Positions 3,162 to 62,224 of a DNA stretch of 64,000 nucleotides are shown piece by piece. Numbering within the stretch: position 1 is the first letter of the stretch; the number at the start of each line of letters is the position of its first letter. Both the position numbers and the translations under genes were made by a program. Source of the DNA: a virus; IMG/VR virus record IMGVR_UViG_3300036861_001161, positions 1-64,000 of that record, one strand, 5' to 3'. The notes under the pieces were generated by a model. It was given only the letters and a program-made list of their open reading frames with translations, searched no databases and was not told the DNA's origin.

Positions 3162-3527
3162 CTAGATGCCTGGGCGCGGCGACTGCCGTAGTTCAAAATG
3201 ATTTGCATCCACGAGCTTTGGAATGCGTCCTCCCCAGTAACAATGGGGGTCTAGTCCTTCCCAGTACACGCCCAGCGTCGTATAGTGGCTCGGTGCAGTC
3301 AGGTAGACTCCATCCTTAAAGAGCGATAAGTCGATCGCGAGCTTTTTCGTGTGCTGACTGTTTTTCGTCTTCGTGGAGCCGCGCTGGTAGTATATATCCT
3401 GCATTTCCTGGGGACGAAAAGTCTCGCCGTACCGTAATTGATACCCTTGATCCAAGATGAATTGGATGAAGGTCACTGAGAGTACCACGAAGAGTTCTTG
3501 GGCCTTCCCTAACGCGAGAGCCATCAT
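3162..3527 (-). CDS. Endolysin, M15-family L-Ala-D-Glu peptidase
   Basis: The 121-residue protein matches the M15 endolysins that cut the peptide stem of peptidoglycan. It shows GYQLRYGETFRP, then the zinc-ligand segment SQHTKKLAIDL (H and D spaced by six residues), then HCYWGGRIPK and a C-terminal NHFEL with the third zinc-ligand histidine. The start at 3527 is preferred because AAAGGTGAT lies eight bases upstream; a start at 3596 would add an unrelated N-terminus. There is no signal peptide, so release would need a holin. A 34-residue ORF overlaps its start by ATGA. Confidence 0.88.
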   Translation of the reverse strand: MMALALGKAQELFVVLSVTFIQFILDQGYQLRYGETFRPQEMQDIYYQRGSTKTKNSQHTKKLAIDLSLFKDGVYLTAPSHYTTLGVYWEGLDPHCYWGGRIPKLVDANHFELRQSPRPGI

Positions 3528-3628
3528 GATTGCATCACCTTTATCCCATAGGCACCAGTCCCCGCCAGCGCCTTCCCACACCAGGACAACTGACACAACA
3601 ATCCGTTGGGTTCATCCTTGCGTGCCAT
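3524..3628 (-). CDS. 34-residue ORF coupled to the endolysin
   Basis: Between the antirepressor and the endolysin lies a 35-codon frame beginning MARKDEPNGLLCQLSWCGK. It has a near-perfect ribosome site (GGAGGT, four bases before the ATG), and its stop overlaps the endolysin start as ATGA. The coding frame, strong RBS and coupling make it a credible small gene that could set endolysin translation. It has no membrane segment, so it is not a holin. Function unknown. Confidence 0.55.
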   Translation of the reverse strand: MARKDEPNGLLCQLSWCGKALAGTGAYGIKVMQS

Positions 3629-3630
3629 CA

Positions 3631-4362
3631 TTACCTCCGATAGGCTACAGATGCTTCCCGGCTGAAGAAACTCAGTTGCCGTGTTGCTTGCTCATAAGCA
3701 GCGGCAATGGTATAGGGACTGTAGTAGGGGCAGAGGTAGTCATAGTTCTCAGGGCGGAACATATCGGGGTCTTCCATGTCACGGCAGGTCGCCCGAAGAT
3801 GGGCGAGGACCGGCTTGGGCAGAAATGGCTTACTGTGGCGTCGTAACCAGTCTTCAATACGAAACTTATCCGCTGGCGGTTGACGTTCAACCAACGCAGC
3901 AATTTGGAGGGCCTGTTCCTCTTGTCGTGCCTCTATTGCGCTTGCCCGTTGCTCAAACTCCACGTTGATGTGAGCTTGGGCAAGAAACATTTCTGCGGTT
4001 GTAAGTGCTTTATGGGATGGTCGTTCAAGTACTTCTCGCTCACATTCGAGAAACCAGAGGCGTGCTTCTTTCCCCTTGGCAGTCTTTTCCACCATAGAGA
4101 GTTCTTTACACATCTCGAAGGAGAGATAATACTCAATTGGCGGGTTTGGGTTTGCGCTACTAGAATCGTAGTATCTTGTAAAATCAATACCTTGCACAAA
4201 CCCATACTGGGCAATCCGCTTTGTAATCCAATCATTAAACCGCTGTTTCACTTCTAAAAAAGCATAGAGATCACGGGCATTGACGGTGTTCACGGTGTCG
4301 GTGCCTATTTGGCGCCGAGCAAATGGAATCAACATGGATGTGGTAGACTTGTGGGTAGTCAA
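3631..4362 (-). CDS. AntA/AntB-type phage antirepressor
   Basis: Residues 20-115 form an AntA domain: NTVNARDLYAFLEVKQRFND, then FVQGIDFTRYY, then YYLSFEMCKELSMVEKTAKG and ARLWFLECE. Such proteins bind and inactivate phage repressors, or act as DNA-binding regulators. The C-terminal half contains a helical, glutamate-rich segment and a KFRIEDWL region, a typical variable tail. The gene uses a TTG start supported by GGAAGGAAA seven bases upstream. Antirepressors usually sit in early or lysogeny regions; here it lies beside the endolysin at the end of the late operon, so it may act late. Confidence 0.85.
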   Translation of the reverse strand: MTTHKSTTSMLIPFARRQIGTDTVNTVNARDLYAFLEVKQRFNDWITKRIAQYGFVQGIDFTRYYDSSSANPNPPIEYYLSFEMCKELSMVEKTAKGKEARLWFLECEREVLERPSHKALTTAEMFLAQAHINVEFEQRASAIEARQEEQALQIAALVERQPPADKFRIEDWLRRHSKPFLPKPVLAHLRATCRDMEDPDMFRPENYDYLCPYYSPYTIAAAYEQATRQLSFFSREASVAYRR

Positions 4363-4712: not shown

Positions 4713-5122
4713 TACGGCAGCACGGGCGCTGGAATCTCCACGACACACGGTTCGCTCCAGATACCTTTAGGGGCTCCAGCTTGCAACGGGCCGCCGGCAT
4801 GCTTGGGAGCCGGCAGCGCCCGCACATGGACCGTCAGCGCAGCAAAATCATCCAGGACAATCACGTCCGGGGGCGCCAGGAGAAAATCACTGTCGACGAT
4901 AATACTCCCATCCGCGAGAATCCCAATCATCTCGACCTGATAGGCGTTCGCATCAGCGATCAGGTCCCAGGCCACTATGACGTCCGTACCCACCACGGGA
5001 CAGACCACATTCTCTGGGGCTGGGAGTTTCGCCTGGCCCGGTGGGACCAGCGGCGGGGCGGCAAAGGCCGTAGAGGCGAGCACGAGGGTAAGGGCGCAGA
5101 GGGTTGCAGCAAACGTCTTCAT
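4712..5122 (-). CDS. Exported protein with fibronectin-III-like fold
   Basis: A clean signal peptide (MKTFAATLCALTLVLASTAFA) is followed by a domain of about 110 residues with the strand pattern of an FN3 module: a P-AP-ENVVCPVVGTDVIVAWD start, ANAYQVEMIGI in the middle and LTVHVRALP near the end. It resembles the neighbouring exported proteins at 6.5-7.2 kb and 47.7 kb, which also begin with an aWD-type strand. No enzyme motif is seen. It probably acts in the periplasm or at the surface as part of cassette A. Confidence 0.65.
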   Translation of the reverse strand: MKTFAATLCALTLVLASTAFAAPPLVPPGQAKLPAPENVVCPVVGTDVIVAWDLIADANAYQVEMIGILADGSIIVDSDFLLAPPDVIVLDDFAALTVHVRALPAPKHAGGPLQAGAPKGIWSEPCVVEIPAPVLP

Positions 5123-5200
5123 CCAGAGATTCCTTTTTTATAAGTAAGTAACCAGATCCTGCCAAAGTATACCAACAAATCCTCCGAGGCACTCCTGGAG

Positions 5201-5623
5201 TCACAGCAGCAGCGGAGGCAACTGCGCTGGCGTCTCGCGAAACCGGATGAAGGCCATCGTGAGCTGGCGCGCCCCATCCTGGAGCGGGGCCAGATCCGCG
5301 ATCACCGGAATCTCATGGCCATCGGCATGCCGGGCGAAGATTTCTATGCCCATGCGCCGGTGGATACGCGGTGTCCGTTCATAGGTCGTGCGGAGCAAGA
5401 CATGTTTGGTCCGTAAGCGTTCAGGAACCAAAACTTCGACGGGCTCCCCCACGAGGCTGCCCCGGGCGTAGCCGGCGAGCGTCTCCAACACCAGATTGGT
5501 TGCCAGGATGCGTCCGAGCGCATCCACAATAACAATGCCATCCTGCATCACATCGATTATTTCTTGTATCAGGCCCGGACCGAAAGGTTCGGTGGGCTCC
5601 TGGAATGGCAGTTCCTCATTCAT
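5201..5623 (-). CDS. Stand-alone PAS domain protein
   Basis: Residues 17-125 form one PAS domain: IIDVMQDGIVIVDALGRILA, then LETLAGYARGSLVGEPVEVL, then a central helix with HRRMG and FARHADGHEIPVIADLAPL, the strand order typical of sensor-kinase PAS modules. No kinase, GGDEF or HTH domain is attached. PAS domains bind small ligands or cofactors, or mediate dimer contacts, and are very unusual in phage late operons. The start overlaps the upstream coiled-coil/membrane gene by ATGA, so the two are made together and may interact. A host-derived moron is the simplest origin. Confidence 0.82.
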   Translation of the reverse strand: MNEELPFQEPTEPFGPGLIQEIIDVMQDGIVIVDALGRILATNLVLETLAGYARGSLVGEPVEVLVPERLRTKHVLLRTTYERTPRIHRRMGIEIFARHADGHEIPVIADLAPLQDGARQLTMAFIRFRETPAQLPPLLL

Positions 5624-32484: not shown

Positions 32485-33276
32485 GTGAATATCCCACAAG
32501 AAAAAAGATGTCTCAAATGTCTCGAAACAAAATCCCTTGATGAATTTGGGAAAGATAAGTACCAGTCCGATAGACACGCAACGCGATGCCTTCTTTGTAA
32601 ACGGCAGAAAAGTGCTGACTATAGGAAAAAGAATCCAGAGAAGGCAAGGGCAGCGAGCGCGGCATGGAAGACAGAAAATCCTGCAAAGGTTCTTGCGTAT
32701 GCTGATGCCCATAGAGAGCGTAAAAATACGCGACGCAGAGAAAGGTATCGTGAGAATCCTGAAAGAGAGCTGGCTGTAAACGCGACGTACTATTACAGTC
32801 ATAAGGATGAATTGCGCCCAGTACGTGCGGCATGGGAAGCCTCGAACAAACCTCAGCGCAAAGCGAAAAGACTTGAAACCTTCCTGAAAGATCCAGAAGG
32901 CAACCTTGAGAAACGACACAAACGTGATGCGGACTGGCTTGTAAAACATCCGGGATATTCGACAGAAAAATGGGCACGGCGGCGGGCACGAATAGCCAAT
33001 TCGCCCGCCAATGACTTTACGGCGGCTCAATTCGAGGAAATCAAAGCCGCTCAAAAGCATCGCTGTTATCATTGTGGTAAACGTCGCAAGTTGACTCGTG
33101 ATCACGTCGTTCCTGTTATCCAAAATGGTGCACATACCGTACAAAATATTGTAGCGCTCTGCCTCGAATGTAATAGCCGTAAGAAAGATGGGGATGTTCT
33201 TGGTCCAACACAGTTAAACCTTCTCACTGAAGCACCTCCCAAACCCTACAAACCTCGCACCAAGAAAGTTGCCTAA
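32485..33276 (+). CDS. HNH homing endonuclease (free-standing), copy 1
   Basis: 263 residues, plus strand, GTG start four bases after GGAGGA. The N-terminus is a C-x-x-C zinc knuckle pair (KRCLKCLETKSLDEFGKD, TRCLLCKRQ), the middle is a very basic helical region of NPE/NPA repeats, and the C-terminus is an HNH nuclease: HRCYHCGKRRKLTRDHVVPV then NIVALCLECNSRKK. The last residues YKPRTKKV are identical to the end of the HNH gene at 60.1 kb, so the two are paralogues. It interrupts the minus-strand late genes between the two tail-tube copies, as mobile endonuclease genes often do. Confidence 0.88.
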   Translation: MNIPQEKRCLKCLETKSLDEFGKDKYQSDRHATRCLLCKRQKSADYRKKNPEKARAASAAWKTENPAKVLAYADAHRERKNTRRRERYRENPERELAVNATYYYSHKDELRPVRAAWEASNKPQRKAKRLETFLKDPEGNLEKRHKRDADWLVKHPGYSTEKWARRRARIANSPANDFTAAQFEEIKAAQKHRCYHCGKRRKLTRDHVVPVIQNGAHTVQNIVALCLECNSRKKDGDVLGPTQLNLLTEAPPKPYKPRTKKVA

Positions 33277-52299: not shown

Positions 52300-52326
52300 C
52301 CCTCGCGCTGTGCAACCAGCCGAGGG
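52300..52326. promoter_or_regulatory. Divergent hairpin between fibre-like and HNH-like genes
   Basis: CCCTCG-C-GCTG and CAGC-CGAGGG pair over ten bases with one bulged base and a six-base loop. On the minus strand the last arm (GAGGG) is the only ribosome-site-like sequence before the TTG at 52296. On the plus strand it lies in the HNH-like leader. Confidence 0.55.
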
Positions 52327-52360
52327 CATGGCACCAGACTTCTGGGATAGAGAAGCACCG

Positions 52361-53035
52361 ATGCGAGACAAGTCTACCATACTACGCCCCACGACGAAAG
52401 ATCTCACCGGACAATCCTTTGGCGGCTGGACCGTTGTTGACTTTGCAGGCTATGTCCATGGAAATAACTGCTGGGCATGCCAATGCTGTTGCGGTACAAC
52501 CCGCAATGTTCTCGGATTTTCTCTCCGCAATGGACGTTCTCAGTCATGTGGATGCCTTGGCCATATCAAAACAGGGCAATCTGCCAAAACGCATGGACAA
52601 AGCCGTACTCCTGAATACCGAGTCTGGCAACAGATGCTTCAACGCTGCGAAAATCCCATGGCTCAGGGATATCAACTTTATGGCGCCAGGGGGATTGCCG
52701 TCTGTGAGACATGGCATGACTTCATGACCTTCTATACTGATCTTGGTCCGCGCCCTTCGTCTAGACATAGTCTTGAGAGAAAGAATAATGCTCATGGATA
52801 TACTCCTGATAACTGCATATGGGCAACAGCGCTTGTGCAAAGTCGCAATACAAGAAGGAATATCCTTATTACTTATAATGGCATCACTCAATGTCTCCAA
52901 CAATGGTCTCTATCTACAGGTATCCTCGCTGATACAATAGGACGTCGGTTAAAACATGGATGGCCAATCAAAGAAGCATTAACTCTTATGCCATCACATT
53001 CTAACAAGTCTAAAGCTTTGTTTAAATCGCCTTAG
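52361..53035 (+). CDS. HNH-like homing endonuclease with NUMOD-type C-terminus
   Basis: The ATG at 52361 gives a normal N-terminus (MRDKSTILRPTTKDLTGQSF). Zinc knuckles follow (NNCWACQCCCGT, SQSCGCLGH), then TPEYRVWQQMLQRCENP, YQLYGARGIAVCETWHDFMT and HSLERKNNAHGYTPDNCIWA, a nuclease pattern frequent in free-standing phage endonucleases. It ends with an HTH-like tail (ITQCLQQWSLSTGILADTIG, RRLKHGWPIKEALT). An upstream GTG at 52310 is in frame but lies in the hairpin. The 3' end overlaps the tail-terminator gene by 14 bases. Confidence 0.75.
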   Translation: MRDKSTILRPTTKDLTGQSFGGWTVVDFAGYVHGNNCWACQCCCGTTRNVLGFSLRNGRSQSCGCLGHIKTGQSAKTHGQSRTPEYRVWQQMLQRCENPMAQGYQLYGARGIAVCETWHDFMTFYTDLGPRPSSRHSLERKNNAHGYTPDNCIWATALVQSRNTRRNILITYNGITQCLQQWSLSTGILADTIGRRLKHGWPIKEALTLMPSHSNKSKALFKSP

Positions 53036-56723: not shown

Positions 56724-57821
56724 TCATTCCTCCGTATCGATATAAGTGGCACGGCCCGTCTTCAACCGATACTTGACTTGCATACGCGTATAGCCACTAT
56801 CGCGGGCGGCATCCATAATCGAGGGATAGACAACGCCATCCAGAAGAATAGCGCGGGCGTTAGGGTTTTTCTTTCCAGAGTGGGCTGCTACCATCTTTGC
56901 ACGAGCTTCTGGCGTATGCTTTCTTCCCGCATTCAATCCCCCCAGCCCTTGATGCGATTCGCTGAGTTTGGCACGATGCTCTTCAGAGAGTGGCCCTTGT
57001 TTCAGACCTTTATTCCAGGCTTTTCGGCCTTTTGCTGCTTCGGCAATCTTACGCCTCGTTTCCTCAGAATGGGTGCGTCCCTGCATTGCATTCCCATGCT
57101 CAGCCTGGTGCGCCCGTACTGCGGCGGCAATCTGCGTCTTTGTATCCTCTGTATGCTCCCGGCCAATCCAGGGATGTTGACCTTCTGCGTATCGTTTCAC
57201 AGCTTGGTCTCTGAGTTTTTGCTTGTGATCTTCTGTTTTTGGTTTGCCTCGCACCGAGGCCATCATGGCTTCGTGATGGGCCTCAGAAATTATCTGACCC
57301 TGCCGTGCGTCTGACAATTTCTGCCTATGCTCCTCAGACAGCAATTTGCCATACATATGGTTCTTGTCGCCTAGCTGAGCCTCACTCATTTTCTGCCGCT
57401 GCTCAAGAGACTTCGGAATGCCACGGTGGCGATTGCCAACAGCTTCACGAGTGGCAAGAGAAATTGGGATGCCTAGCTTCGCAAGAGAGATACGCTGCTT
57501 CGCCTCCTCAGACATAACACGCCCGAGTGCTCCCTCACCACCGAGCGTGAGGTTATACCCATGCCCAGTTGGGGCAAACGTGTTGTACTCCTGGATCGCA
57601 GCGCATTCCATAACTACTAAGGCTTCCCAATCGGTAGCTTCAGCGAGCATTTCCACCGTAAATGCCTCTATACCATATTTGCGGATAGCCCGCGCAAGCG
57701 CCTGAGCACCGCCAGTTTTCGCGTTGGAATAGTGTCGTTGCCACCGATGGCGCAAAGGTTGAGTAGTAATACCGACATAACCCTTTAGATTGACCGTATT
57801 ACGAACTAGATAGAGATACAC
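56724..57821 (-). CDS. GIY-YIG homing endonuclease with NUMOD3 repeats
   Basis: A GTG start follows AGGAGG by six bases. Residues 1-95 are a GIY-YIG domain: YLYLVRNTVNLKGYVGITTQ, PLRHRWQRHYSNA, and the distal GHGYNLTLGGEG. Residues about 100-315 contain around eight NUMOD3 DNA-binding repeats (SEEAKQRISLAKLGIPIS, SEEHRQKLSDARQGQ, SEETRRKIAEAAKGRKAWNK). The C-terminus is an NUMOD1-like HTH (YPSIMDAARDSGYTRMQVKY). It lies 75 bases after the last capsid exon and may help move the capsid introns. Expression is gated by a 17-pair hairpin. Confidence 0.92.
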   Translation of the reverse strand: MYLYLVRNTVNLKGYVGITTQPLRHRWQRHYSNAKTGGAQALARAIRKYGIEAFTVEMLAEATDWEALVVMECAAIQEYNTFAPTGHGYNLTLGGEGALGRVMSEEAKQRISLAKLGIPISLATREAVGNRHRGIPKSLEQRQKMSEAQLGDKNHMYGKLLSEEHRQKLSDARQGQIISEAHHEAMMASVRGKPKTEDHKQKLRDQAVKRYAEGQHPWIGREHTEDTKTQIAAAVRAHQAEHGNAMQGRTHSEETRRKIAEAAKGRKAWNKGLKQGPLSEEHRAKLSESHQGLGGLNAGRKHTPEARAKMVAAHSGKKNPNARAILLDGVVYPSIMDAARDSGYTRMQVKYRLKTGRATYIDTEE

Positions 57822-57866
57822 TTTGAACCTCCTGTTGAGAGATATCGTAGAGGTTCAAAGTGTATC
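57815..57866 (-). promoter_or_regulatory. 17-pair hairpin sequestering RBS and start of the GIY-YIG gene
   Basis: GATACACTTTGAACCTC (57850-57866 on the minus strand) pairs perfectly with the complementary arm at 57815-57831, with an 18-base loop. The downstream arm contains the GGAGG core's GAGG, the spacer and the GTG start itself, so translation needs the stem opened, or transcription starting inside it. Confidence 0.85.
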
Positions 57867-57895: not shown

Positions 57896-59865
57896 TCACC
57901 CAGCTAGGATCACTGCTAATTCGGGACGTACTAATTGCCGATGGTGTTATCGCCATGGCTCTTTATCCATAGCTTCTGTATGTCGCCATACAGTCCAGAC
58001 TATCTCTTCATCTCACAACTGAGATGCCGGGCGCTCGTGTCGGCTGCATCACTGGTCGAGTGGTATGCCGTTAGTCGTTGCACCTTCTCCGTATCCCTAC
58101 GAAGCTTGGCTCAGGGTTGTCTGCATGAGAGGTTCCCTGAATTCACCCGGTTGGCACTCATAGCTTACGCTATGAGGGGGCAATAGTTCTCTTCCACCCC
58201 GTACAAAACGTCATAGGAGAACCTGGTCCTCTTGTGCTCTCGACTAATTTCAAGGCGTAAGTTCACGCCAGTCAGCGGATCCCCGATGGCCTGCACCAAC
58301 GAATCCGCCAGTTGCAGGTCTGCGAGGGGGCGCGAGGCGAAGGCGGCGGCATCGCGGTGGAAGATCAGGTTGCGCACATAGCCCGCGCCACCGACGGGGC
58401 CTTTGAAGGTGACCACGGCAGTCGTGGCAAAGCCGCCCGTTGGCGCCGCTGGCGCAAACGTGACGCCGGTAATAGCGTTGGCTGCGGCCGTCAACGTCGT
58501 GGCATTGGTGACCACGAAGGTGCCGCTCACGCCGGCCACGCTGAAAATCTCGCCGGTCAGAATCGTCCCGGTCAGTGAGGTCTCATTGATATTCATGGTG
58601 GTCGCACCCGCAGCCACGGTGCCGTTGACCTTCGCGGCATGGATGGAGCCGTTCGTCAAGGTTCCGGTAGGGCGAACGACGATGTTCTGATCCATGAACC
58701 AGTCTGCGCCCATCTTGGTGCCTATCTGTCCGAGAATGATGCCTTGCGTATTGCCCGCCCAGGACGTGTCTTGAAACGCCCGGAGATTGAGCGCCGCGCC
58801 TTCGGCATCGGGGTCCAGCACGACGCGCCGGTCGCCCATAGGCGCCAGCTGGCGGTTGAGGACGGCGCGACCGGACGTGTAGACGGCGGTATCAGGCACA
58901 ATATTGGGGGAGACCGGGGTGCTGAAGGGCGTGGTGCCCGCCGTGCCGACAAAGCCGTAGACGCCGTTAAAAGCGGCAATCGTATCGGTATCCATCACCT
59001 GGCAGACCGCCTTGATAGCCTCCGAAGCCTGCATGGGCATCGTGCCTTCCATGGCGTCCATCATGTCTTTATCAGTCAAATAGAACGGGGCTTCTTTCCA
59101 CCGGTTTAAAACCACCACGACAGACGTCGGGGCAATGTCGGCGGTCGAGGGCGGGGTGGCCGCAGGAGTCACGTCCTGGACCGCGATAGCGCTAGGGATG
59201 GGTATGTTTATTGAGTCCCCGCGCTGTGCGGCCATCGTGTCATAGCCACGGTTGACTCATCGATGTTATCGTGAGGGCTCTTTATCCCTCACTTCTGCAT
59301 GTCACCATGCAGAGCAGACTATCTCATCATCCCAGAAGGATGCCGCGCGCTCGTGGGGTTTTACTGCCATGGCTGTCTAGCGGTAGGCTCCATACCCTAG
59401 TCGTTGAACCTTCCGTGGGTTTCCCCAGCGGCTTGGCTGCTGATTGTCTCAAAGAGAGGTCCCAGCAATTCACGCGGTATACATCTCTAAATTACTTTAG
59501 AGAGGGCCAGTCAATCTAGCCTTGGCATTACGGTATTTGCTCTTAGTGCCATTAGCCCCTGCACACTGTTACCGTAGAAGCTTTTTATCTTCTACTTCTT
59601 TCCATCACTGGAAAGATCAGGCCATCTCTTCATCTCGATTGCCTGAGATGTCGGGCGCTCGTGTCGGCTGCATCACTGGTCTAGTGGTATGCCGTTGGCC
59701 GTTGCACCTTCACCCTATCCCTAGGGTGCTTGGCTCAGGATTGTCTTGTGGTATACCACAAGAGGTTCCCTGAATTCACCCGATGTACATCTGTGACTCG
59801 CGCCACAGAGAGCCCAGAAATTAAGCAAGGAGCTTAGGAAGAACCGCAGTAAGAATATTGGCCAC
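57896..59865 (-). CDS. Major capsid protein, P22 coat family, four exons (three group I introns)
   Basis: Exons on the minus strand: 59824-59865, 59518-59561, 58196-59257 and 57896-57938. Joined they give 1191 nt and 396 residues in one frame: exon 1 MANILTAVLPKLLA (GTG start after AAGGAGG), exon 2 QGLMALRANTVMPR plus two bases, exon 3 VNRGYDTMAAQRGDSINIPI onward to FSYDVLYG, exon 4 QLVRPELAVILAG. Each exon boundary falls inside sequence conserved in P22-type coat proteins, and unspliced RNA hits a stop within a few codons of every 5' site. The middle includes a FSVAGVSGTFVV beta insert. It forms the icosahedral shell; the scaffold gene lies upstream. Confidence 0.92.
57939..58195 (-). ncRNA. 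Group I intron 3 of the capsid gene
   Basis: About 257 nt. P1 pairs exon GGGGU with internal guide GCCCC, giving the usual U-G at the splice site. Core elements include AACCCTGAGCCAAGC, the P7 halves GACTA and TAGTC, a P9 hairpin CTGTATG-GCGA-CATACAG, and a terminal G. No ORF inside. Very similar to intron 1. The same mRNA results if both cuts move by one G. P10 pairing is weak. Confidence 0.9.
59258..59517 (-). ncRNA. Group I intron 2 of the capsid gene
   Basis: About 260 nt. P1 pairs exon GGCU with guide GGCC (U-G at the cut). The five bases just before the guide, UGACU, pair perfectly with the 3' exon AGUCA (P10), which fixes both splice sites. The P7 halves are GACTA and TAGTC, and P9 is CTGCATG-GTGA-CATGCAG. 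Ends in G. More diverged from introns 1 and 3. Confidence 0.92.
59562..59823 (-). ncRNA. Group I intron 1 of the capsid gene
   Basis: About 262 nt, starting TAATTTCTGGGC and ending GTGTG. P1 is short (exon GCU with guide GGC). P10 pairs UUUCUG with exon CAGGGG, using G-U pairs. Its core AATCCTGAGCCAAGC matches intron 3, but its P7 halves are GGCCA and TGGCC, a compensated change from GACTA/TAGTC. No ORF inside. Confidence 0.9.
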
Positions 59866-59964
59866 TGAATGGGCCTCCTTGTTCGCTTGATGAACATGAA
59901 GCCCCTCGGGGGCCAACATCGAACCGCTCGGCGGAAGGATGTTTGAAAAATCCGATGAAGATGC

Positions 59965-60122: not shown

Positions 60123-61028
60123 ATGACTGACGCCAGTATTACACCGCCGCCACTTATTTGCAATGCCTGTCCCGATGAAAAAACCCTAGAAGATTTCTAT
60201 TACAGTAAAACTGGCAAACGTCTACAGCCGTGCAAGCGTTGCATTGCGATGAGATATGCCGCCAATGGAGAAATCAACCGCGCAAGAAAGCGTCGTGCCT
60301 ATGCCGCTGATCCTGCAAAGCATCAAGCTCAGGGGCGGGCGAGTCATGCCGCACATCGTGAAGAACGACAAGCTAAACAAAAAGTCTATCGTGATACTCA
60401 CAAGGAAAAACGTACAATCAAGAAACATGAGTATTACGAAGAAAACCGCGAGGATATTCTTACAAAAGACCGCGCGTATAACGCAGAACACAAAGAGGAA
60501 AGGGCAGCAAAGAATCCTGAGTGGAATCTGAAAAATAAAGAGAAGGTCGCCATCGATAACCACAATCGGTACATGGCGAAACAGGAAGAACGTCAAGCAG
60601 CACAGCGCGCCTACAATGCTGCAAACCCTGACAAGAAGCGTGCAAGTGATCGATTAAATCGAAAGAACCACCCAGATATCCAGCTGACATTGCAAGCACG
60701 AAAGCGAGCCAGGAAGCGTAATGCGCCTATCAATGACTTAAGTCATGGACAGTGGTTAGAAATTCAGGTCCATTTCTTCTATGCCTGCGTCTATTGTCCA
60801 TGGGACTATGAAAAATGTTTTCACAAAACCCATTCGCTAACACAAGACCATATCATTGCCTTAATAAATGGCGGTAACCATACAGTTCCTAACGTTATCC
60901 CAGCATGCCGGCATTGTAACAGTAAGAAACATACTGGCCCACCCACACGTTACGTCCAGCCACTCTTCTTTACAAGCGCTCCCCCAAAACTCTACAAACC
61001 CCGCACCAAGAAAGTAGGTTCGCTATGA
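60123..61028 (+). CDS. HNH homing endonuclease (free-standing), copy 2
   Basis: 301 residues. N-terminal zinc knuckles (ICNACPDEKTLEDFYYSKTG, QPCKRCIAMRY), a long basic helical linker rich in lysine, glutamate and asparagine, then an HNH core: CVYCPWDYEKC, LTQDHIIALINGGNHTVPNV and IPACRHCNSKKHTGP. The last segment LYKPRTKKV is shared with the HNH gene at 32485. It lies between the scaffold-side genes and the capsid gene, opposite in strand, and is a candidate mobile partner of the capsid introns. Confidence 0.88.
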   Translation: MTDASITPPPLICNACPDEKTLEDFYYSKTGKRLQPCKRCIAMRYAANGEINRARKRRAYAADPAKHQAQGRASHAAHREERQAKQKVYRDTHKEKRTIKKHEYYEENREDILTKDRAYNAEHKEERAAKNPEWNLKNKEKVAIDNHNRYMAKQEERQAAQRAYNAANPDKKRASDRLNRKNHPDIQLTLQARKRARKRNAPINDLSHGQWLEIQVHFFYACVYCPWDYEKCFHKTHSLTQDHIIALINGGNHTVPNVIPACRHCNSKKHTGPPTRYVQPLFFTSAPPKLYKPRTKKVGSL

Positions 61029-61462: not shown

Positions 61463-62224
61463 TTATGCACTCATATCGACTTCGACTTCCCCACGGGCGA
61501 TCTTCTCCAAATTCTGAAGAAATGCCTTGGAATCACTAGCCGCCACCACATTGCGCCCATTCCGGCTCTGTCCCCCCAGTCCGTTATTGGCCCCACCCCC
61601 GCTACTGCTCTTGAAATAATGCGGATACGTCTTGCTCAGACCGCCGAGCCATTCTTCCATGCTCAGAAACCTGGATGGTTCGCGGTCACTATAGATGGGG
61701 TCTTCGCCTTGAAATGGGACGACCTTGCCTTCAGTAACACGAAACACGCGCGAGGCGCGCGTCTGCAAATCCTCCAGGGCGGTCTCATGAATTCCCACCT
61801 TAGGCGCAGCCATGGCCACTTCATTGGAGATAAGGGCATGGTGGAACTTCATCTCATTGGCTTTGGCCACGGCATCGCGCTCAGCAAACATCCCTTCGTA
61901 TTTTTTGGCGAGGCGTGCCTCGACCTCGGTAATTTGCTTCTGGATATCCGTCGGCGCGGCCTTGAGCGATTTGTATTCGTCAGGGTCAATATCCTTGTAT
62001 TTCCCCTGAAACTCGGCATGCTCGGTTTGCAGGGCTTCGTAATCTTTTTGCAGCTTCTCTTTGTCACGATTCAACGCTCTATTATTCGTTCTAAATTCAT
62101 TCAGCATATCCTTCGTGACATAGCCTTCCACATCCAGTATCCATTTCCCGTCTTTTTCGACCAGATGCTCCCGCAACGGTTCAGGCGCATCGTCTTGTGA
62201 ATCGTACATTCCTTTGAGTGCCAC
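61463..62224 (-). CDS. Scaffolding protein
   Basis: 253 residues, GTG start after AGGAGA. YVTKDMLNEFRTNNRALNRD leads into a long coiled coil (KEKLQKDYEALQTEHAEFQG; DIQKQITEVEARLAKKYEGM), then AMAAPKVGIHETALEDLQTR. A glycine/serine/asparagine-rich linker follows, and the end is acidic (FLQNLEKIARGEVEVDMS). Composition and position just before the capsid gene mark it as the internal scaffold that shapes the procapsid. Confidence 0.82.
   Translation of the reverse strand: MALKGMYDSQDDAPEPLREHLVEKDGKWILDVEGYVTKDMLNEFRTNNRALNRDKEKLQKDYEALQTEHAEFQGKYKDIDPDEYKSLKAAPTDIQKQITEVEARLAKKYEGMFAERDAVAKANEMKFHHALISNEVAMAAPKVGIHETALEDLQTRASRVFRVTEGKVVPFQGEDPIYSDREPSRFLSMEEWLGGLSKTYPHYFKSSSGGGANNGLGGQSRNGRNVVAASDSKAFLQNLEKIARGEVEVDMSA

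Follow-up and report, generated by a model that had tools for sequence, protein, structure and literature searches.

A P22-like phage major capsid gene split by three predicted ORF-less group I introns and bracketed by free-standing endonuclease genes

The question raised by this locus is how a phage could obtain its major capsid protein from a gene that lies in four pieces. The window, i.e., the whole stretch of DNA that was analysed, comprises the first 64,000 bases of a virus record from a metagenome (65,498 bp), which derives from an uncultured phage. The capsid gene occupies positions 57896-59865 on its minus strand, exactly where the initial annotation had placed it, and is organized as follows:

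59874..59880, minus strand: Shine-Dalgarno sequence AAGGAGG of the capsid gene, 8 nt upstream of the start
59824..59865, minus strand: exon 1, 42 nt, with the GTG start at 59865
59562..59823, minus strand: predicted group I intron 1, 262 nt, no ORF, RF00028 score of 75.3 bits
59518..59561, minus strand: exon 2, 44 nt
59258..59517, minus strand: predicted group I intron 2, 260 nt, no ORF, RF00028 score of 84.0 bits
58196..59257, minus strand: exon 3, 1062 nt
57939..58195, minus strand: predicted group I intron 3, 257 nt, no ORF, RF00028 score of 88.9 bits
57896..57938, minus strand: exon 4, 43 nt, with the TGA stop at 57898-57896

When joined, the four exons (42 + 44 + 1062 + 43 nt) form a single 396-codon frame from GTG to TGA. 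The boundaries of intron 3 are ambiguous by one base (GGGGT/GG...CG/GC), and the spliced mRNA is identical either way. Read-through of the unspliced message is blocked at once by TAA in intron 1 (GCT/TAA), by TGA as the third codon after entry into intron 2, and by TAA once ten codons of intron 3 have been read, the last being visible in the ORF 59235-58165. Thus, both the early in-frame stop that had been proposed for every intron and the dependence of the capsid on splicing find support in the sequence. Over its whole length (residues 1-396), the joined product matches the major head protein family PHROG 283 (E = 3.5e-67), and profile matches were also obtained to the solved major capsid proteins 8zdh, 8e16 and 9jwb. 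In alignments with uninterrupted homologues (L004-L007), to which it is 50-56% identical, there is no gap at any of the three junctions (residues 14/15, 29 and 383), which, together with the open frame, bears out the proposal of an unbroken 396-residue protein encoded by four exons. The P22-type assignment holds through the relatives: all nine aligned homologues match Pfam family PF11651 (P22_CoatProtein, best E = 2.1e-48), whereas the spliced protein of the window has no PF11651 match itself and is assigned by PHROG 283 only. Among isolates, Vibrio phages such as SSP002 are closest; their capsid gene is in one piece, and its product is 49% identical over the full length.

The identification of the three interrupting elements as group I introns is well supported by covariance and structure. 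All three cover the full Rfam model RF00028 and score 75.3-88.9 bits against a gathering cut-off of 50 bits, with E-values between 2e-21 and 3e-17 for a search space of 64 kb. No further RF00028 match was found in the 65,498-bp record, and no other Rfam RNA family reached its gathering threshold in the window. The structure derived from the three-intron alignment consists of P1, P2, P3, P4, P5, P6, P6a, P7, P8, P9 and P9.1, with 97.7% of the cells paired. The helices, including the P3/P7 pseudoknot, are formed in all three introns except for the ends of P1 and one pair of P6a. Compensatory changes altering both sides are found in 31 of the 59 pairs, a number reached in none of 500 shuffles; when the partner strand was slid by 1-3 columns, pairing fell to 35-46% and compensatory pairs to 1-6. 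Each intron has a U-G pair at the 5' splice site and a terminal G, and GNRA loops cap P2 and P9; these group I features, most of them listed in the initial annotation, can be read directly from the sequence. An insert of 35-45 nt between the 5' strand of P7 and the 3' strand of P3 forms a paired arm in all three and may correspond to the P7.1/P7.2 insert of subgroup IA; subtype IA2 accounts for more than half of the group I introns in viruses (PMC11835236). P1 of intron 1 has just three exon-guide pairs, and the 3' exon CAG pairs with CUG; in intron 2, P10 is formed between AGUCAA of the 3' exon and UUGACU next to the guide, and inspection of the intron 3 sequence revealed no clear P10. An endonuclease reading frame is absent inside all three introns.

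Very probably, therefore, this is a capsid gene carrying three ORF-less, IA-like, self-splicing group I introns that are near-neutral mobile passengers and arrived by co-conversion, perhaps aided by endonucleases. Judging from structure and homology, each intron would fold in the pre-mRNA into a P1-P9.1 ribozyme, an external guanosine would lead to cleavage after the U of the P1 U-G pair, and the exons would be joined at the terminal G to yield one 396-residue capsid protein from four exons. The stops at or just behind the 5' splice sites would bar ribosomes from the intron cores and render unspliced mRNA useless. Entry into the gene probably occurred by co-conversion during co-infection, and the endonucleases encoded on either side may have helped in trans.

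These endonuclease genes and their surroundings are as follows:

56724..57821, minus strand: free-standing GIY-YIG homing endonuclease with NUMOD3 motifs and an I-TevI-like DNA-binding domain (PF01541, PF07460, PF20987; PHROG 314), directly downstream of the capsid gene
57815..57866, minus strand: 18-bp hairpin, a perfect inverted repeat, containing the Shine-Dalgarno sequence and GTG start of the GIY-YIG gene (-29.2 kcal/mol, z -6.4)
60123..61028, plus strand: free-standing HNH endonuclease (PF01844, PF14279; PHROG 8660), between the scaffold and capsid genes
61463..62224, minus strand: head scaffolding protein gene, upstream neighbour of the capsid gene (PHROG 206, E = 2.8e-25)

The spacing between scaffold and capsid genes is ~60-450 bp in relatives versus 1.6 kb here, where the interval contains the HNH gene, and a GIY-YIG gene adjoining the capsid gene was not seen in relatives. 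Two more HNH genes are located on the plus strand (32629-33273 and 52310-53035), the first of which is 33% identical to the capsid-adjacent one. The closest parallel to the GIY-YIG gene is the T4 td intron endonuclease I-TevI, with which it shares the nuclease type, an I-TevI-like DNA-binding domain and a hairpin masking the Shine-Dalgarno sequence (PMC2988022); unlike I-TevI, it is free-standing beside the introns rather than intron-borne. The equivalent hairpin delays translation of T4 endonucleases (PMC2988022), and translational control by the hairpin over the GIY-YIG start is likely by analogy. For ORF-less introns, mobility by collaborative homing has been described (PMC3984707). Its layout, ORF-less introns with a free-standing endonuclease adjoining the insertion gene, is present here, making collaborative homing of these introns plausible. 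Flanking endonucleases were also considered as a general trait of intron-rich capsid genes, and this idea was rejected: GIY-YIG and HNH (PF01844) genes occur in 3 and 6, respectively, of 40 multi-intron capsid records, the window's own included and many of them short fragments. Since most such records show neither gene, flanking endonucleases are not required.

Three introns in one capsid gene had been considered exceptional, and this view did not survive a broader search. Within the family itself, no introns were found in the 18 closest IMG/VR homologues, and among 29 capsid homologues from GTDB genomes there is one convincing case, the contig L223 from a bin assigned to cyanobacteria (Xenococcaceae), whose 43% identical capsid gene contains one group I intron (3523-3761) near codon 178, a fourth site in the family. 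We also found no description of introns in this P22-like capsid family in the open-licence literature. Outside the family, a covariance model built from the three introns of the window (R1) was run on viral contigs sharing short core motifs and yielded more than 200 matches, a number that includes redundant contigs and partial hits. The interrupted reading frames form three large clusters, which comprise 14, 14 and 9 spliced ORFs and in which every tested representative is a major head protein (PHROG 1357, 1328 and 9953); the same holds for L195 and L206 (PHROG 267). Of 75 scanned exon products, 28 or more match major head families if each is counted once, although the sample was selected by similarity to the window's introns and the fraction is no census. 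Two metagenomic contigs exceed the count of three: L102 encodes a 329-residue capsid protein in five collinear exons separated by four introns, all over the Rfam cut-off, and the capsid gene of L118 likewise has five collinear exons and four introns over the cut-off. The first spliced-ORF predictions were greedy and may include intron-borne frames; for L102 and L118 the exon order was rechecked against less interrupted homologues. L033 and L053 apparently contain five and four introns. Dense group I intron arrays in PHROG 1357 capsid genes, some with inserted frames, are found in L033 (9756-12907), L053 (2129-4885) and L046 (5901-7585). The closest intron relative (L199, 2522-2782, 209.5 bits) resides in another virion structural gene (PHROG 6121). 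EBPR siphovirus 1 (L091, JF412302.1), which carries a related intron at 4971-5235, was rejected as the same case, its head gene being a different one (~1,268 residues); there, head protein gp47, HNH gp48 and gp49 look like one intron-split gene with the HNH frame intron-borne.

Published systems point in the same direction. In crAss-like phages (Zeta cMAG OLRF01000054 and the Delta group), the tailed-phage major capsid gene is likewise in many pieces, five in the case described by Yutin 2021, where three of the four intervening gaps contain group I intron domains (PMC7886860). However, those introns were found through their encoded endonuclease domains, whereas the introns described here are ORF-less, 257-262 nt long and located in a P22-like capsid gene. 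Single capsid introns are known in mycobacteriophage LittleE and in Tuc2009, as cited there (PMC3706429). Introns of LittleE (capsid) and BAKA (tail) are also group I-like and in virion genes, BAKA's being 265 nt long and ORF-less, and their splicing was demonstrated by RT-PCR; by contrast to our case, there is a single intron per gene, and that of LittleE holds an endonuclease gene (PMC3706429). Twort orf142 (tail tube) and the polymerase and terminase genes of Bastillevirinae contain two or three IA-type group I introns each, but these are not capsid genes, and Bastillevirinae introns average 802 nt (PMC11878797). In Faustovirus E12, the major capsid gene likewise has several introns of group I (5 of 12), along with GIY-YIG endonucleases, although this is a eukaryotic giant virus of unrelated biology with long, partly spliceosome-like introns (PMC6247863). 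Thus, the kind of arrangement was already known and the count of three is no record; the gene represents a recurrent pattern and not a unique oddity.

Several other explanations of the introns were weighed against near-neutral passengers. It is exceedingly improbable that they are degenerate inserts in a dying or mis-assembled capsid pseudogene; the record is a metagenomic contig, yet its 396 exon codons lack stops and frameshifts, and compensatory changes maintain the helices in all three introns, which decay would break. Somewhat more credit, though still little, can be given to the introns being regulators, with splicing timing or limiting capsid output and exon 2 being skippable through cross-pairing of a splice site with the guide of another intron. 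Indeed, the guide of intron 1 can pair with GGCU, the 5' splice site of exon 2, at least as well as with its own, and neighbouring group I introns show exon skipping in Twort orf142 and SIOphi polymerase (PMC11878797). However, skipping of the 44-nt exon 2 shifts the frame and leads to a stop after five codons, yielding no alternative protein. Relatives with 50-56% identity are intron-free. Variation between close capsid genes further argues against a needed role: L111, which is 70-100% identical to L102 depending on the exon, carries only the first of its four introns, and L189, 92-97% identical to L118, is without two of them.

A different origin, considered unlikely, is proliferation of the introns within the gene: they would have reverse-spliced into the abundant capsid mRNA, with later reverse transcription and recombination. 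Introns at different sites of the same capsid gene are more alike than under shuffled labels (0.618 versus 0.569, p = 2e-4), which hints at local spread. Moreover, introns from different positions in the same capsid gene form sister pairs in L195 (80% identity), two sites fall in a joint clade in L163/L211, and reverse splicing is a proposed route of ectopic spread (PMC3984707). On the other hand, a common local intron pool would also produce within-gene similarity, and no reverse transcriptase (PF00078) was found in the window's record or in 13 other intron-bearing records. Intron 2 is also not sister to the other two: in the tree, introns 1 and 3 lie on one side of a split with support of 0.997 and intron 2 on the other. 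Introns 1 and 3 are recovered as sisters with low support (0.221) and may be copies of one lineage, and intron 2 is, by its position in the tree, a separate one. The within-gene likeness and the separate placement of intron 2 thus suggest at least two independent arrivals and possibly one local copy, with co-conversion of passenger introns remaining the preferred origin. Unusually conserved stretches around the three insertion sites were not demonstrated (p ~0.1). The two 99%-identical introns of L054 (4144-4408 and 6514-6778) were rejected as recent ectopic copies, since the upstream flank is duplicated too and provides no evidence of transposition; each precedes a different reading frame behind a shared upstream leader, maybe a duplicated leader or a ribozyme-controlled cassette. 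A broader proposal can be put forward tentatively, as possible: tailed-phage major capsid genes might in general act as hot spots for short ORF-less group I introns of a single broad clade, which would jump ectopically to new sites within the gene and be aided between phages by border endonucleases.

The locus provides a clean, well-supported case of a phage whose main shell protein would depend on three splicing events, with endonuclease candidates at both borders of the gene. It also serves as a warning that gene callers will miss or truncate capsid genes split by introns. Phage introns have been viewed as settling mainly in genes of DNA and nucleotide metabolism (PMC11878797). By contrast, the relatives found here indicate that short group I introns have invaded capsid genes repeatedly in several tailed-phage families, often as multiple introns in the same gene, a pattern that parallels the capsid gene introns of giant viruses (PMC6247863) and of mirusviruses, in which 4-22 introns are present (PMC12768974).
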